Shown here: one piece after another, positions 8,659-36,269 of the stretch
Layout: every line of letters begins with the position of its first letter
Position numbering within the stretch: position 1 is the stretch's first letter
NCBI RefSeq assembly: GCF_937891065.1
Contig: NZ_CALAEQ010000004.1
Coordinates: forward strand, 1 to 36,642
From: an uncultured Lutibacter sp.
GTDB lineage: Bacteria > Bacteroidota > Bacteroidia > Flavobacteriales > Flavobacteriaceae
DNA: 36,642 nt
Direction of reading: 5' to 3'
Notes under the pieces: generated by a model
Told to the model about the DNA's origin: nothing
Databases searched by the model: none
The model's input: only the letters and a program-made list of their open reading frames with translations
Program-made: the position numbers and the translations under genes

Positions 8659-8999
8659 TTTAATGCTCCTTTTTTCCAAGCGTATGCTAAGCCTACACCC
8701 AATATTGAAAGAAATATGATAACTTCAACAAAAGCAACTGTTCCTACTTCTTTAAAAACTACTGCCCAAGGAATTAGAAATGCTACTTCAATATCAAAAA
8801 TTAAGAATAATATTGCAAACAAATAATATCCAACTTTAAATTGAACCCAAGTTGGGCCAATAGTTGTCATACCACTTTCATACGGCTCTCGCTTTTGTGG
8901 ATTGTCTGATTTATGTGAAATTAAATTTGATAAAAAGTTTGCACCTGCAACTAAAATAACTCCGGCAAGTAGAAATACAATAATGGCTTCTGATCCCAT
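8649..8999 (-). CDS. nuoA: NADH-quinone oxidoreductase subunit A
   Basis: Small membrane subunit with three helices that lines the quinone cavity entrance, 116 residues. The loop signature [20 protein letters not shown] is followed by the TM2 motif [17 protein letters not shown] with the conserved acidic pair. ATG start at 8999. First gene of the nuo run, 90 bp downstream of korB on the same strand. That gap holds a hairpin but no convincing TAnnTTTG promoter, so read-through from korAB is possible. Its end overlaps nuoB. Confidence 0.97.
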
Positions 9000-9053: not shown

Positions 9054-9075
9054 TTAGCTGATATAAGTCAGCTAA
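9054..9075 (-). terminator. Hairpin between korB and nuoA
   Basis: TTAGCTG and CAGCTAA form a perfect 7-bp stem with an 8-nt loop. On the minus strand it lies 15 nt beyond the korB stop and 55 nt before nuoA. No U-tract follows it, so it does not look like a strong terminator. An RNA-processing or partial attenuation site between korAB and nuo is equally possible. Confidence 0.35.
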
Positions 9076-9089
9076 AAATGTCACATTTA

Positions 9090-10103
9090 TTACTTAACTT
9101 CATATGTTTCTCCTGCGAAAAATAAATCGTCAGTTTTTTTGAATTTTGAATTTGCTTTTACTTGTTTGGTTAAAGCGTCTTCACGTTCTTCAAGAGTAAC
9201 ATCATCAAAACTTCTAATAATTCCTGTTGCTACTGGATACTCTAATCTAACCAACATTTGGTGCATAGTTGGGTCTTTTTCTTTAGCATCGTGCACTAAA
9301 AGATCTTCTTGTGTAATGCCATTTTCTCCAATAGTTACAACTTCTAATTTTAAACCGTTAAGTACTAAACCTTTATCACGTTCTTTACCAAAAATCATTG
9401 GTTTCCCATGTTCTAAGAAAATTTGTTTATCTTCTTTTACATCTTTATTGGTGATGCTACTAAAACATCCATCATTAAAAATTACACAGTTTTGTAAAAC
9501 CTCAACCAATGATGTTCCTTTAAATTTATGAGCATCAATTAAAATTTGTGTAATATCCTTTGGTACATTCCCTCCTATTCTACCAAAAAAACGTGCTCCA
9601 GCTCCTAATGCTAATTCTCCAGGAGTAAAAGGAGGCTGTGTGTTTCCATAAGGTGAAGATTTTGTTTTTTGCCCCACTAATGAAGTTGGAGAAAACTGAC
9701 CTTTTGTTAAGCCATAAATTTCATTGTTAAATAAAATAATATTTAAATCTATATTTCTACGTAACACATGAATAAAGTGATTACCACCAATAGCCATTGC
9801 ATCTCCATCACCAGTAGCAATCCAAACACTTAAGTTAGGGTTGGCTAACTTAACTCCAGATGCAATTCCTGGTGCTCTACCATGAATAGTATGCATTCCA
9901 TAAGTATTCATATAATAAGGAAAACGAGATGAACACCCAATTCCTGAAACAAATACAACGTCTTCTCTTTTAACACCCATTTCTGGAAGTGCTTTTTGCA
10001 TGGAACGTAAGATAACATAGTCATCACAACCAGGACACCATCTTACTTCTTGATCGCTTGTAAAATCTTTAAATGTATATTTTTGCTCTGTAATTGCTTC
10101 CAT
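9090..10103 (-). CDS. korB: 2-oxoacid (2-oxoglutarate type):ferredoxin oxidoreductase, beta subunit
   Basis: Thiamine-diphosphate and [4Fe-4S] subunit of a two-subunit 2-oxoacid:ferredoxin oxidoreductase, which converts 2-oxoglutarate plus CoA to succinyl-CoA, CO2 and reduced ferredoxin. It has 337 residues. The ThDP motif is GDGD at 98-101 with NN at 126-127. Cluster cysteines are C23 and C26 (WCPGCDDY), C57 (GIGCSSR) and C206 (LQNCVIFND). The phrase GCSSRFPYYMNTYGMHTIHG with HGRAPGIASGVK is typical of KorB-type enzymes. It starts 2 bp after korA. Substrate (2-oxoglutarate versus pyruvate) is inferred from resemblance to KorB; biochemistry would decide. Confidence 0.93.
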   Translation of the reverse strand: MEAITEQKYTFKDFTSDQEVRWCPGCDDYVILRSMQKALPEMGVKREDVVFVSGIGCSSRFPYYMNTYGMHTIHGRAPGIASGVKLANPNLSVWIATGDGDAMAIGGNHFIHVLRRNIDLNIILFNNEIYGLTKGQFSPTSLVGQKTKSSPYGNTQPPFTPGELALGAGARFFGRIGGNVPKDITQILIDAHKFKGTSLVEVLQNCVIFNDGCFSSITNKDVKEDKQIFLEHGKPMIFGKERDKGLVLNGLKLEVVTIGENGITQEDLLVHDAKEKDPTMHQMLVRLEYPVATGIIRSFDDVTLEEREDALTKQVKANSKFKKTDDLFFAGETYEVK

Positions 10104-10105
10104 AA

Positions 10106-11962
10106 TTAGTCTACTAATTTTTTAAATTCTGCTATTAGTTCATTGTTTCCGAAAGGTAATCCTTGGATTTTATTTTTTTGATAAAACTTAAATCCTTCAA
10201 AATTAATTCTCAAAATTTTAGCAAATTGACCATCATTCAATTCACAAACAATAATTTTTTTGAATCTTTTTAATAATTCTTCCGTGTTTTTCGGAAGGGG
10301 ATTGATATAATTGAAATGTGCAAAACCAATTTTCGTATAACCTTCTCCATTTATTTGCTTAACCGCTGAATGCAAAGAACCATAAGTTCCTCCCCAACCA
10401 ATTACTAATAAATCTCCTGAGTCAGCAAATTCTGTTTTAATCTCTGGAATATAATTTTTTACTCTTTCAATTTTTTCTGCTCTTGTCCTAGTCATTATTT
10501 CATGATTTTCAGGAGCTTGTGAAACATTACCGGTAAGGCTATCTTTTTCTAATCCCCCTACTCTATGTTCTAAACCAGCTGTTCCAGGAATTGCCCAATC
10601 GCGAGCTAATGTTTTTTCATCTCTATTATAAGGATGCCAGTTTTCAATAACTTCTTTCGTTTTTCTATGTTTAATTTCAGGTAAATCATCAACACTTTGT
10701 ATTTTCCAAGGAGCCGATCCATTTGCAATATAACCATCCGTTAATAAAATTACAGGAGTCATATGCTCTAATGCCAATTTAGAAGCTTCAAACGCAAATC
10801 TAAAACAGTCTGCAGGTGTACTTGCTGCAATTACAATTACAGGGCTTTCACCATTTCTACCATACATTGCTTGTAACAAATCTGATTGTTCAGTTTTTGT
10901 TGGTAAACCTGTTGAAGGGCCTCCACGTTGAACATTTACAACAACCAAAGGTAATTCCATAATCATTGCTAAACCTAAAGCTTCACCTTTTAAAGCTAAC
11001 CCTGGGCCTGAAGTTGTAGTAATAGCTAAATCACCTGCAAATGAAGCGCCTATAGCAGAAGCAATTCCTGCAATTTCATCTTCAGCTTGAAAAGCTTTTA
11101 CTCCAAAATGTTTGTGTTTTACTAATTCATGTAAAATATCAGTTGCTGGAGTTATTGGGTATGAACCTAAAAATAATTCCAATCCTGATTTTTCAGCTGC
11201 TGCTAAAAATCCCCAAGCCGTAGCTGTGTTACCCATAATAACTCTATAGATCCCTGGGTTCATTTTTGCGGGAGAAATGGTATATGCATTAGGTATTAAC
11301 TCTAATGTTTCTGCGAAATAATAACCAGCATTTAAAACTTTCGTATTCGCTTCAATTAAATTTGGTTTCGATTTGAATTTTTTATTAAAAAAATCTATAG
11401 TATATTGTCTATCTCTTCCATACATCCAATAAACCATCCCAAGGGCAAACATATTTTTACTTCGAGTGATAGATTTATTATCTAAACCTTCAACTTCTTT
11501 TAACGCTTCTTTTGTTAAGGAAGTCATATCAACTTGAATCACTCTATAATTTTCAAGACTATTATCTTCAAGTGGGTTTGTGGTGTATTGGGCTTTTTCT
11601 AAATTCTTTTTAGAGAAAGCATCGGTGTCAACAATAATTGTATGACCAGGTTTTAAGGCATATAAATTTGTTTTTAAACCAGCAGGATTCATTGCTACTA
11701 ACAAGTCTAAATTATCACCAGGAGTGCTAATTTCAACACTACCAATATGAACTTGAAATCCTGAAACCCCATATAAACTACCTTGAGGAGCTCTAATTTC
11801 AGAAGGGTAGTTAGGAAATGTAGCTATATCATTACCAAACATTGCAGAAGTATCTGTAAATTGCGTGCCTGTTAATTGCATCCCATCACCTGAATCTCCT
11901 ACAAATCTTATAACAACGGCTTCAATTACTTCTGGTTGGAGTGTTTCTTTAGTTGTAATCAT
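10106..11962 (-). CDS. korA: 2-oxoacid (2-oxoglutarate type):ferredoxin oxidoreductase, fused gamma-alpha subunit
   Basis: 618 residues: an N-terminal gamma domain (RFVGDSGDGMQLTGTQF at about 19-35, then FPNYPSEIRAPQGSLYGVSG) fused to an alpha domain (about 235-618) with GSYPITPATDILHEL, QAEDEIAGIASAIGASFAGD and TTTSGPGLALKGEALGLA. These are the hallmarks of KorA-type subunits that bind the 2-oxoacid and CoA and pair with KorB. The fused gamma-alpha form with no delta (ferredoxin) domain means the enzyme needs a separate ferredoxin; one is encoded divergently 176 bp away. It is the first gene of the minus-strand block, with an ATG at 11962. Confidence 0.94.
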   Translation of the reverse strand: MITTKETLQPEVIEAVVIRFVGDSGDGMQLTGTQFTDTSAMFGNDIATFPNYPSEIRAPQGSLYGVSGFQVHIGSVEISTPGDNLDLLVAMNPAGLKTNLYALKPGHTIIVDTDAFSKKNLEKAQYTTNPLEDNSLENYRVIQVDMTSLTKEALKEVEGLDNKSITRSKNMFALGMVYWMYGRDRQYTIDFFNKKFKSKPNLIEANTKVLNAGYYFAETLELIPNAYTISPAKMNPGIYRVIMGNTATAWGFLAAAEKSGLELFLGSYPITPATDILHELVKHKHFGVKAFQAEDEIAGIASAIGASFAGDLAITTTSGPGLALKGEALGLAMIMELPLVVVNVQRGGPSTGLPTKTEQSDLLQAMYGRNGESPVIVIAASTPADCFRFAFEASKLALEHMTPVILLTDGYIANGSAPWKIQSVDDLPEIKHRKTKEVIENWHPYNRDEKTLARDWAIPGTAGLEHRVGGLEKDSLTGNVSQAPENHEIMTRTRAEKIERVKNYIPEIKTEFADSGDLLVIGWGGTYGSLHSAVKQINGEGYTKIGFAHFNYINPLPKNTEELLKRFKKIIVCELNDGQFAKILRINFEGFKFYQKNKIQGLPFGNNELIAEFKKLVD

Positions 11963-12021: not shown

Positions 12022-12060
12022 TTTAGCGTCAAATTTATATTTACTTTTTAGAATACTAAA

Positions 12061-12072
12061 TGACTTTTGTCA
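12061..12072. promoter_or_regulatory. Fnr/Crp-like operator in the korA-ferredoxin divergent region
   Basis: TGAC-TTTT-GTCA is a perfect inverted repeat with a 4-nt spacer, the geometry of Fnr-family sites (TTGAT-N4-ATCAA). It is centred 28.5 bp upstream of the ferredoxin -7 element, near the -41.5 activator position. A close copy (ATGACWTTTRTCACA in the common orientation) precedes the fasciclin gene at 35615-35626. The regulator itself is not in the window. Confidence 0.55.
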
Positions 12073-12094
12073 CATAAAATTGTTTAAATTTATT

Positions 12095-12102
12095 TAATTT
12101 TG
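12095..12102 (+). promoter_or_regulatory. -7 promoter element for the ferredoxin gene
   Basis: TAATTTTG matches TAnnTTTG exactly and ends 36 nt before the ferredoxin ATG. No TTG lies at the usual 17-23 nt upstream, which fits a promoter that depends on an activator bound at 12061-12072. Confidence 0.6.
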
Positions 12103-12138: not shown

Positions 12139-12486
12139 ATGGCTATTATAATAACAGACGAATGCATTAATTGTGATGCATGTATTTCAGAATGTCCAAA
12201 CAATGCTATATACGAACCAGATTCAGAATGGGCGTACGCAGATGGAACTTCATTAAGCGGTACTGTAACTACACCTAGTGGTGAAGAAGTTGATGCTGAT
12301 GAAATGCACGAAGCAAAATCTGATGAATTTTATTTCATTGTAACTGATAAATGTACAGAGTGTAAAGGTTTCCACGATGAGCCTCAATGTGCTTCTGTGT
12401 GTCCAGTTGATTGTTGTATTCTTGATGAAGACAATAAAGAAACTGAAGATCAATTAACAGCTAAAAAAGCTTGGTTACACGTTTAG
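12139..12486 (+). CDS. 2[4Fe-4S] ferredoxin, YfhL/Allochromatium type
   Basis: Small cytoplasmic electron carrier, 115 residues. The first cluster motif is C9-IN-C12-DA-C15-ISE-C19-P. The second has the long spacing C72-TE-C75-x8-C84-ASV-C88-P, followed by VDCC. That eight-residue insertion between the second and third ligands marks the Allochromatium vinosum/YfhL class, known for very low redox potentials. An acidic, serine/threonine-rich linker of about 50 residues separates the motifs, longer than in YfhL. It is divergent from korA, so it is a natural electron acceptor for KorAB and a possible donor to the nuo complex. A strong terminator follows, so it is monocistronic. Confidence 0.93.
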   Translation: MAIIITDECINCDACISECPNNAIYEPDSEWAYADGTSLSGTVTTPSGEEVDADEMHEAKSDEFYFIVTDKCTECKGFHDEPQCASVCPVDCCILDEDNKETEDQLTAKKAWLHV

Positions 12487-34848: not shown

Positions 34849-35448
34849 TTAAGATACTTTTAGTAATTTCAAAAGGTCTTCTTGTGTGTTAGCTCCTTTA
34901 TCTTTATTATACCAAATTTGTAATTTAGTTTTAAAATCTGCATCTAAACTACCATTCTGTTCTTTATAATCTAACACCATTTTTGTAGCTATTGATGGCC
35001 TTGGTCCCCAAGAATTTATTACTTTATTTTCGTTATCTAAAATAATAATTTTAGGAATTGATTTACTGCCATTCGTTAAATACTGATCCATTAATTCAGG
35101 ATTCTCATCTCTAAGCACAATTTTTAAATCAATTTTAGCAGAAGCTTCACCAATTTTATTTAAAATTGGTACAATTTGAGCGGCATCTCCACACCAACCT
35201 TCAGCAATAACTAAAAAAGTGAAATCTTTTTTTAGACTATTAATAGAATTTTGCGTTTCTTCAGAAATTTTTAAGGTTTTATCAAGTCTATCCATTCTTT
35301 TATCATTCAAAATGCTATAATTAAATAGATCTTCTGTTTGTTCAAACCCTGTAGATTTTTCTTGAATTAATAGCTCTTTTATTAATTTTCTATAAGCTGA
35401 ATATGCAATTGATTTTTCTAAACTTTTATTTATTAGGGTATTATCCAT
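34849..35448 (-). CDS. Thioredoxin-like protein with a single-cysteine WCGDAA motif
   Basis: 199 residues, no signal peptide, so probably cytoplasmic. An alpha-helical N-terminal third (1-70) precedes a thioredoxin fold: FLVIAEGWCGDAAQIVPIL (active site at 85-90, Cys86), VLRDENPELMDQYLTNGSKS and the cis-Pro region SIPKIIILDNENKVI. The usual second cysteine is an alanine, so it cannot do a normal dithiol exchange alone. It may act in monothiol reactions or bind a partner. This variant family is common in Bacteroidota. ATG start. Confidence 0.9.
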   Translation of the reverse strand: MDNTLINKSLEKSIAYSAYRKLIKELLIQEKSTGFEQTEDLFNYSILNDKRMDRLDKTLKISEETQNSINSLKKDFTFLVIAEGWCGDAAQIVPILNKIGEASAKIDLKIVLRDENPELMDQYLTNGSKSIPKIIILDNENKVINSWGPRPSIATKMVLDYKEQNGSLDADFKTKLQIWYNKDKGANTQEDLLKLLKVS

Positions 35449-35507: not shown

Positions 35508-35614
35508 CATTAATTTTTTAAAATTTTTAGGACAAATTTAAAATTAGTTTTTGAATTACAAATGTAATGTTAGTTGCAAAAAAAAGATATATTTGTCTTT
35601 TAATCTCGAAAGTG

Positions 35615-35626
35615 TGATAAATGTCA
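35615..35626. promoter_or_regulatory. Fnr/Crp-like operator upstream of the fasciclin gene
   Basis: TGAT-AAAT-GTCA, within GTGATAAATGTCATTT. It matches the box at 12061-12072 (reverse strand GTGACAAAAGTCATTT) at 14 of 16 positions. It is centred 29.5 bp upstream of the -7 element, near the -41.5 position of class II activation. Confidence 0.55.
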
Positions 35627-35649
35627 TTTTATAGGTTATTGTATAAAGT

Positions 35650-35657
35650 TACATTTG
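35650..35657 (+). promoter_or_regulatory. -7 promoter element for the fasciclin-cytochrome c operon
   Basis: TACATTTG matches TAnnTTTG and ends 33 nt before the fasciclin ATG. No TTG lies at -33, which fits dependence on an activator at 35615-35626. Confidence 0.6.
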
Positions 35658-35690
35658 TTGCAATTATTTATTAACGTTAACAGTAAAACC

Positions 35691-36269
35691 ATGAAAAAAA
35701 CCAATTTAATTCTATCAATTTTAGTAGTTTTTGCATTTATTATTTTGTCTTGTAATGGCGCAAAAAAACAAGAAACTCAAGAAGTTAATAGTGAAGCTGT
35801 GACAGAAGATAGTGGGCAAGCATCAATTAAAGCAGTTGAAGGTGCTGACCCTAATGCATTACAAGTAGCAAAATCTTTAGATGATTTTACAACTTTAGTT
35901 GCGGCAATAGAAGCAGCTGGCGTTCAAAATTCATTGGTGAATGTAGGTCCTTTAACCGTATTTGCGCCAGTAAATGCAGCATTTGATAAGTTACCTGAAG
36001 GAACAGTTGAAACTTTATTAAAACCAGAAAATAAAAGTCAACTAGCTTTTATTTTAACAAACCATGTTGCTCCAGCAAACTATCCTGATACTCAGTTAGC
36101 AAAAGAAGCAAAAAAAGGACGCAAATTATATATGGCTTCTGGAAAATATTTAGTTGTTGAAAATAAAGAAGATGGAATTTATGTAGGAGGTACAAAAATA
36201 TTAAAAACAGTAAAAGTTAGTAATGGTTGGATACACGTAATAGATAATGTGTTAGTACCTGCTGAATAA
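35691..36269 (+). CDS. Fasciclin-domain lipoprotein
   Basis: 192 residues from the ATG at 35691; an in-frame TTG at 35655 lies within the promoter element and would spoil the signal. Lipobox FIILSC (Cys21), a polar linker (about 22-55), then one FAS1 domain (about 58-190) with DDFTTLVAAIEAAGV, GPLTVFAPVNAAFDKLPEGT, the conserved LTNHV-type His in FILTNHVAP, and NGWIHVIDNVLVP at the end. FAS1 domains mediate adhesion or protein binding. The following gene is a cytochrome c lipoprotein, so a periplasmic electron-transfer role is plausible; that is inference. Confidence 0.93.
   Translation: MKKTNLILSILVVFAFIILSCNGAKKQETQEVNSEAVTEDSGQASIKAVEGADPNALQVAKSLDDFTTLVAAIEAAGVQNSLVNVGPLTVFAPVNAAFDKLPEGTVETLLKPENKSQLAFILTNHVAPANYPDTQLAKEAKKGRKLYMASGKYLVVENKEDGIYVGGTKILKTVKVSNGWIHVIDNVLVPAE

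Follow-up and report, generated by a model that had tools for sequence, protein, structure and literature searches.

We analyzed a 36,642-nucleotide stretch of DNA (the window; contig NZ_CALAEQ010000004.1, here C4, of the uncultured Lutibacter sp. assembly GCF_937891065.1). Toward its end, a gene for a fasciclin-domain lipoprotein (start codon at 35691) lies downstream of a TGA-N6-TCA dyad and a -7 promoter box, and a second operator lies at 12 kb, between korA and a ferredoxin gene (Table 1). The operator-promoter arrangement that a sequence-only reading had described at 35615-35657 is real: the span runs exactly from the dyad through TAnnTTTG, with TACATTTG 23 bp on. The 16-bp words at the two sites (GTGATAAATGTCATTT at 35614-35629 on the plus strand; GTGACAAAAGTCATTT at 12058-12073 on the minus strand) proved on rescan to be identical at 14 of 16 bases, as that reading had counted. 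The distance from the dyad center (35620.5) to TACATTTG at 35650 is 29.5 bp, and transcription of the fasciclin operon would start near 35662.

Table 1. Coordinates of features around the two operators in the window
Feature	Position	Strand	Basis
Putative operator TGATAAATGTCA, TGA-N6-TCA dyad, center 35620.5	35615..35626	+	Sequence scan; kept in relatives
Putative -7 promoter element TACATTTG (TAnnTTTG)	35650..35657	+	23 bp past dyad; 23-bp gap kept in relatives
Fasciclin-domain lipoprotein gene, predicted first gene of nos operon	35691..36269	+	Pfam Fasciclin 1.1e-27; same place in G119, G025, and G047 nos operons
Cytochrome c gene, cut by contig end	36324..36642	+	Pfam Cytochrom_C 5.7e-5; nosZ next in relatives (L093-L095)
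Second putative operator TGACTTTTGTCA, center 12066.5, between divergent promoters	12061..12072		Sequence scan
Putative -7 element TAAATTTG of korA promoter	12030..12037	-	23 bp from dyad; 23-bp gap in 15/24 loci
Putative -7 element TAATTTTG of ferredoxin promoter	12095..12102	+	22 bp from dyad; in 3/24 loci
korA, 2-oxoacid:acceptor oxidoreductase alpha subunit	10106..11962	-	NCBIfam TIGR03710, 646.6 bits (cut-off, 482.75)
korB, 2-oxoacid:acceptor oxidoreductase beta subunit	9090..10103	-	Pfam TPP_enzyme_C 1.2e-29
4Fe-4S ferredoxin gene	12139..12486	+	Pfam Fer4 8.8e-7

The genes behind the first operator had been named a fasciclin/cytochrome c operon. Both gene identities were confirmed with Pfam; judged from gene order in relatives, the operon is more precisely the start of a nos (nitrous oxide reductase) operon. 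Three relatives (G119, G025, and G047) carry, downstream of the fasciclin/cytochrome c pair, genes read as nosZ, nosL, nosD, nosF, and nosY; in most of the 30 family relatives, the cytochrome c gene precedes the fasciclin gene. Because contig C4 ends within the cytochrome c gene, the NosZ of the window's operon is deduced from these relatives and from contig C68, which carries the last part of a third NosZ, has matching genes downstream of it, and is probably the continuation of C4. The NosZ of the C207 operon scored 935.5 bits against TIGR04246 (clade II, Sec-dependent; cut-off, 625). The full-length NosZ genes of C207 and C112 were 94% identical, and the C68 NosZ was 74% identical over its C-terminal part (L098, L099, and L283). 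These three NosZ reflect either several nos operons or a strain mixture in the assembly (contamination, 2.25%).

The 16-bp word by itself was rejected as the motif: it occurred at chance level in the window (3 matches with up to 3 mismatches, against 4.67 expected) and was not enriched in the genome (33 matches at no more than 2 mismatches; reversed control, 46). What carries the signal is the dyad together with a rigid 23-bp gap to the -7 box. In the window, TGA-N6-TCA-N23-TAnnTTTG occurred twice against 0.04 expected, a count reached by 0 of 100 shuffles. Occurrence at the chance rate, which the sequence-only reading had named as evidence against itself, was thus nearly what we found for the word, and the composite lay far above it. 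A genome-wide motif scan, proposed by the same reading as a check, was run with several forms of the composite. In the Lutibacter genome, TGAYANNNRTCA-N23-TANNTTTG matched 19 times and its reversed controls 0 times, TGANANNNGTCA-N23-TANNTTTG matched 8 times against 0 for its reversed control, and TGA-N6-TCA-N22-TANNTTTG matched 12 times (2 of them within genes) against 3 for the control. Across 149 Flavobacteriaceae genomes, TGAYANNNRTCA-N23-TANNTTTG was present in 125, with 674 matches against 7 reversed. In a sample of the phylum, it was found in 55 of 198 genomes (19/19 in the family and 36/179 outside it); outside the family, 26 of the 36 motif-bearing genomes had a single match, and the reversed control matched 4 of 179.

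Phylogenetic footprinting, also proposed beforehand, was run on two sets of nos loci. The family set held the 30 best loci of the fasciclin protein, window included (83 of 149 genomes had a match). The element preceded the fasciclin/cytochrome c pair in 27 of these (14 with the stricter dyad), always at a gap of 23 bp although 20 to 25 bp had been permitted (the reversed control gave 0 and block shuffling a mean of 0.08); the misses were G042, G031, and G105. The named-locus set held the best 80 of 144 loci, of which the 77 with at least 250 bases upstream were scored; many are from Lutibacter, and the rest are mostly from other Flavobacteriaceae or unplaced Bacteroidota. Here, 63 of 77 loci had the element and 14 lacked the exact form; with gaps of 15 to 30 bp allowed, 64 of 67 matches fell at 23 bp, 2 at 22 bp, and 1 at 18 bp (control, 0). 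At least G047/L202 and G119/L255 are common to both sets, which are therefore not independent. That the two sites are unrelated look-alike words produced by chance agrees with the chance-level occurrence of the 16-bp word by itself; set against the excess of the composite over its controls in the family, the retention of element and spacing at the named nos loci, and footprints that beat reversed controls of 0 in both sets, the probability of this explanation is negligible.

None of the 19 copies in the Lutibacter genome (8 and 11 checked in two scans) lay within an ATG-started open reading frame of at least 100 amino acids. First genes behind the 23-bp or 22-bp form were nos (C4, C207, and C112), norC-like, napD-napA, and cbb3 oxidase (C112 and C159) genes, a copper-type ATPase gene, hemN, hemA, hemG, sdhC, nqrA, korA, a methylmalonyl-CoA epimerase gene, and others. 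NosZ (C207), HemN, NapA, methylmalonyl-CoA epimerase, SdhC, HemA, HemG, NqrA, CcoN (C112), and KorA scored above their NCBIfam cut-offs. Best matches for malic enzyme, pyruvate phosphate dikinase, and the copper-type ATPase read as CcoI (C159) were below cut-off, and most of the below-cut-off genes are incomplete at the edge of the stretch scanned. Others were named by reading alone, among them norC and a cytochrome c maturation protein (neither matched an NCBIfam model), ccoS/ccoN of C159, and a FadL-like porin. Three copies (C10:2791, C67:200, and C234:11931, the last close to a contig end) had no gene start of at least 60 amino acids within about 400 bp. Near the start of contig C67 (L047), the element occurs twice in tandem, once with a looser dyad, and the next gene start, 426 bp on, reads like 3-aminobutyryl-CoA ammonia-lyase; if true, this reading would suggest lysine fermentation under low-oxygen control. 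The copy at C262:7733 (L281), just upstream of another Crp-type gene, forms a perfect hairpin (-18.9 kcal/mol) with a T run behind it and probably serves as a terminator, so some motif matches are not operators.

At the 12-kb site, the distances of 29.5 versus 28.5 bp given by the sequence-only reading are correct, with 28.5 bp belonging to the ferredoxin side (center 12066.5 to TAATTTTG at 12095, plus strand). On the korA side, TAAATTTG at 12037-12030 (minus strand), a box absent from that reading, again lies at 29.5 bp. KorB scored 244 bits against TIGR02177, under the cut-off of 261.9. Footprinting covered 24 ferredoxin loci of at least 72% identity, out of the 30 best, with 260 bases searched; 22 of the 24 had the dyad, and 3 had no KorA match. 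The korA side kept the 23-bp gap in 15 of 24 loci (in one of these, L150, with the dyad at a different place), against 3 of 24 keeping the 22-bp gap on the ferredoxin side. The better conserved promoter here is thus korA's, on the opposite strand, and ferredoxin was set aside in favor of korA as the chief target. The 6 more distant ferredoxin loci (66 to 69% identity, without a KorA match) all lacked the dyad. A further TGATATAAGTCA dyad was seen at 9059-9070, in the gap that separates the korB stop (9090) from the next minus-strand open reading frame, which starts at 8999; it had no -7 box at 23 bp on either strand. The two sites had been taken to mark a shared regulon linking ferredoxin metabolism and anaerobic electron transport. 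Genome enrichment, phylogenetic footprinting, and coherent, respiratory target genes strongly support a predicted shared regulon of Crp/Fnr type; the link to ferredoxin gave way to the better conserved korA promoter.

Class II FNR/CRP promoters have the dyad centered at -41.5 and the TA of the promoter box at -12/-11. By analogy, the 29.5-bp distance from center to TA is the geometry of class II Crp/Fnr promoters. A TTG 17 to 21 bp before the -7 box occurred at 3 of 63 nos sites, where shuffled spacers predict 7.6, a scarcity to be expected if an activator replaces that contact. The element shows three marks of a class II promoter: the dyad (35615-35626), the rigid distance (64/67), and a weak or missing -33/-35 element. 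The sequences show a conserved dyad at a rigid spacing, accompanied by respiration genes; binding, activation, signal, and binding protein we infer as follows. A dimeric Crp/Fnr-family regulator would bind TGAyAnnTrTCA centered at about -41.5 and would contact RNA polymerase as at class II FNR/CRP promoters, compensating for the missing -33 element; the polymerase would then use the Bacteroidota -7 box TAnnTTTG. When oxygen is scarce, the regulator would switch on the nos operon and, via the other operator, korAB. The likeliest binders would be FNR-like proteins with four invariant cysteines (encoded on C159 and C112), which have the same dyad upstream of their own genes, and receiver-Crp response regulators, whose recognition helix is nearly the same, may bind as well. 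We consider it very likely that the element is an activator-dependent class II-type Crp/Fnr promoter for low-oxygen expression of nos and korAB, with the terminator-like copy on C262 and the Rrf2 findings given below weighing slightly against it. Judged by its sequence, the element is genuine and conserved, and as a Crp/Fnr-type class II promoter it is of an ordinary kind.

The Lutibacter genome had 11 HTH_Crp_2 matches, 10 of them above cut-off. Both FNR-like proteins (L032 and L034) matched PF00027 and PF13545 above cut-off; the best NCBIfam model for L032 was Fnr (PRK11161), where it scored 95.4 bits, under the cut-off of 228. Best solved relatives were a Crp/Fnr protein (2gau) and FNR-type regulators (9qlt, 5cvr/5e44, and others). 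The cluster cysteines of E. coli FNR are 20, 23, 29, and 122. In the FNR-like set (the 30 best loci plus L034), Cys 4, 7, 53, and 106 were invariant in 31 of 31 sequences; in L032 and L034, Cys 4, 7, and 106 line up with cysteines of FNR, whose third cysteine has no counterpart, and Cys53 stands in place of the alanine in LYAIRSG. Noninvariant cysteines were also common in L104-L133, at L032 positions 29 (20/31) and 59 (29/31). The dyad starts 45 to 73 bp before the ATG in 29 of 30 FNR-like orthologs and in 13 of 30 ends 9 to 11 bp before the gene's own -7 box, a position that suggests self-repression. On C159 and C112 (L024 and L003), each FNR-like gene stands back to back with what reads as the copper ATPase gene of a cbb3 cluster, and the intergenic region between the two contains a dyad; on the ATPase side of C112, CACATTTG stands at 23 bp instead of TAnnTTTG (by eye).

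Two further proteins (L033 and L035) are receiver-Crp fusions, with a receiver domain, a cNMP-like domain, and a Crp helix-turn-helix. The L033 gene follows a PAS histidine kinase gene, and in 27 of the 30 best orthologous loci an open reading frame of more than 150 amino acids ends within 60 bp upstream of the receiver-Crp start. Their recognition helix, IATE[ST]xIR (first T in 21/30; E, I, and R in 30/30), compares with TATESAIR in the FNR-like proteins; the receiver Asp52 was present in 30 of 30. Uncontrolled counts put a dyad no more than 400 bp downstream of the receiver-Crp gene at 20 of 30 loci and close to the start of the gene upstream of it at 14 of 30.

Co-occurrence of motif and regulators was scored in the 149 family genomes (FNR-like at E ≤ 1e-55; receiver-Crp at E ≤ 1e-60). 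The motif was present in 36 of 36 genomes with both classes (mean, 7.8 copies), in 51 of 53 with FNR-like only (4.3 copies), in 30 of 30 with receiver-Crp only (4.8 copies), and in 8 of 30 with neither (0.67 copies). Receiver-Crp may be undercounted throughout this tally because at most 14 candidates per genome were scored. With either class, 117 of 119 genomes had it, against 8 of 30 with neither (P = 1e-17, such P values being too strong because the genomes are related). The association held within each genome-size class (at least 2.5 Mb, 109/111 with a regulator versus 5/11 without; below 2.5 Mb, 8/8 versus 3/19), so genome size is not the explanation. In the nos footprint of 30 loci, all 19 genomes with an FNR-like ortholog kept the element, as did 8 of the 11 without. 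The motif thus accompanies either class, with a slightly tighter association at nos for the FNR-like one. The FNR-like protein as sole binder in the family was rejected on the strength of the 30 genomes in which receiver-Crp but no FNR-like ortholog at E ≤ 1e-55 was found, all of which have the motif.

These counts permit a reading that we hold tentatively, as possible rather than probable: a single low-oxygen regulon of Flavobacteriaceae that includes N2O reduction, in which one operator serves two interchangeable sensor classes, the relocated-cysteine FNR-like proteins and the PAS-driven receiver-Crp proteins, with lineages keeping one, the other, or both. The FNR-like class would carry a predicted iron-sulfur site, CX2C-X45-C-X52-C, with the third cysteine relocated; receiver-Crp would be a one-piece "FixJ-FixK," and operators would stay while regulators vary. 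Rather unlikely, in our estimate, is that receiver-Crp, phosphorylated by the PAS histidine kinase, is the real nos activator and that the FNR-like protein controls the other copies. The receiver-Crp-only genomes, which all have the motif and of which 8 of the 11 in the nos footprint keep the nos element (G007, G069, G074, G027, G090, G054, G063, and G118), would be explained by it, and the similar recognition helix, the conserved Asp52, and the position of the gene behind a PAS histidine kinase agree; the motif is, however, also in 51 of 53 FNR-like genomes without a receiver-Crp match (a class possibly undercounted), and all three nos loci of the family set without the element (G042, G031, and G105) belong to receiver-Crp-only genomes, which lessens the weight of both this explanation and the two-class reading.

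Target genes bear on whether the binder is instead an NO-sensing member of the family (DNR, NnrR, or HcpR type), with nos answering to nitrogen oxides and not to oxygen. The norC-like and nap genes behind motif copies would suit such a sensor, as would the FNR-like box that DNR binds before nosZ in Proteobacteria according to PMC1274295, but cbb3 oxidase, heme synthesis, korA, nqrA, and sdhC fit oxygen control, a co-occurring regulator carries four invariant cysteines, and the Bacteroides HcpR2 motif given in that source differs (GTAACnnnnGTTAC); we regard an NO sensor as improbable. Lower still, as very improbable, we place nos being chiefly under an Rrf2/NsrR-type regulator with the dyad secondary. 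A gene read by eye as Rrf2/NsrR-like is divergent from nos in L093 and L094, with the dyad in between, and sediment-metagenome scaffolds with clade II nos, many of them from Flavobacteriia, were enriched in Rrf2 regulators, just one having an NnrR-like gene (PMC6264515). Yet dyad and spacing are still kept where the divergent gene is thioredoxin-like (34849-35448, in the window) and where the gene order has no Rrf2-like gene beside nos (G047); a regulator gene need not adjoin its target.

The preferred reading, an activator-dependent class II-type promoter, shares with the class II FNR/CRP promoters of E. coli the TGA-N6-TCA dyad, the 29.5 bp to the TA of the -10/-7 box (-41.5), and little need of a -35/-33 element; it differs in its Bacteroidota -7 box TAnnTTTG and in its half-site, TGAyA here against TTGAT there. 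In FixLJ-FixK, a PAS kinase, a receiver domain, and a Crp-type output are linked to cbb3 oxidase; the same parts are tied here to a gene set that includes cbb3 oxidase, but receiver and Crp output are in one protein. The DNR regulon of denitrifying Proteobacteria, with CTTGATnnnnATCAAG before nirS, nirK, norB, and nosZ (PMC1274295), likewise has an FNR-like box before nosZ and nor; that regulon is from another phylum, whereas the set here adds oxidases, heme synthesis, and central metabolism and has a regulator with an invariant cysteine set and a nos operon with a fasciclin gene. HcpR2 of Bacteroides is also a Crp/Fnr-family protein of Bacteroidota tied to nitrogen oxides, with a different motif and a predicted regulon of only hcp in most Bacteroides (same source). 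Among the papers listed by a literature search over titles and the starts of abstracts (subscription papers being outside its scope), none described the operator in Flavobacteriaceae, its constant spacing from the Bacteroidota -7 box upstream of nos, the relocated cysteine, or two regulator classes on one operator; this is a weak argument for novelty.

Many clade II N2O reducers belong to the Bacteroidota, and the group is considered a sink for N2O. Knowledge of how denitrification is regulated in N2O reducers of environmental relevance remains limited, particularly outside Proteobacteria (PMC6264515). A conserved operator at a fixed place makes nos control directly testable, and the motif offers a criterion by which candidate low-oxygen genes can be picked out in Flavobacteriaceae. 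The element also shows how class II activation would fit a TAnnTTTG promoter.
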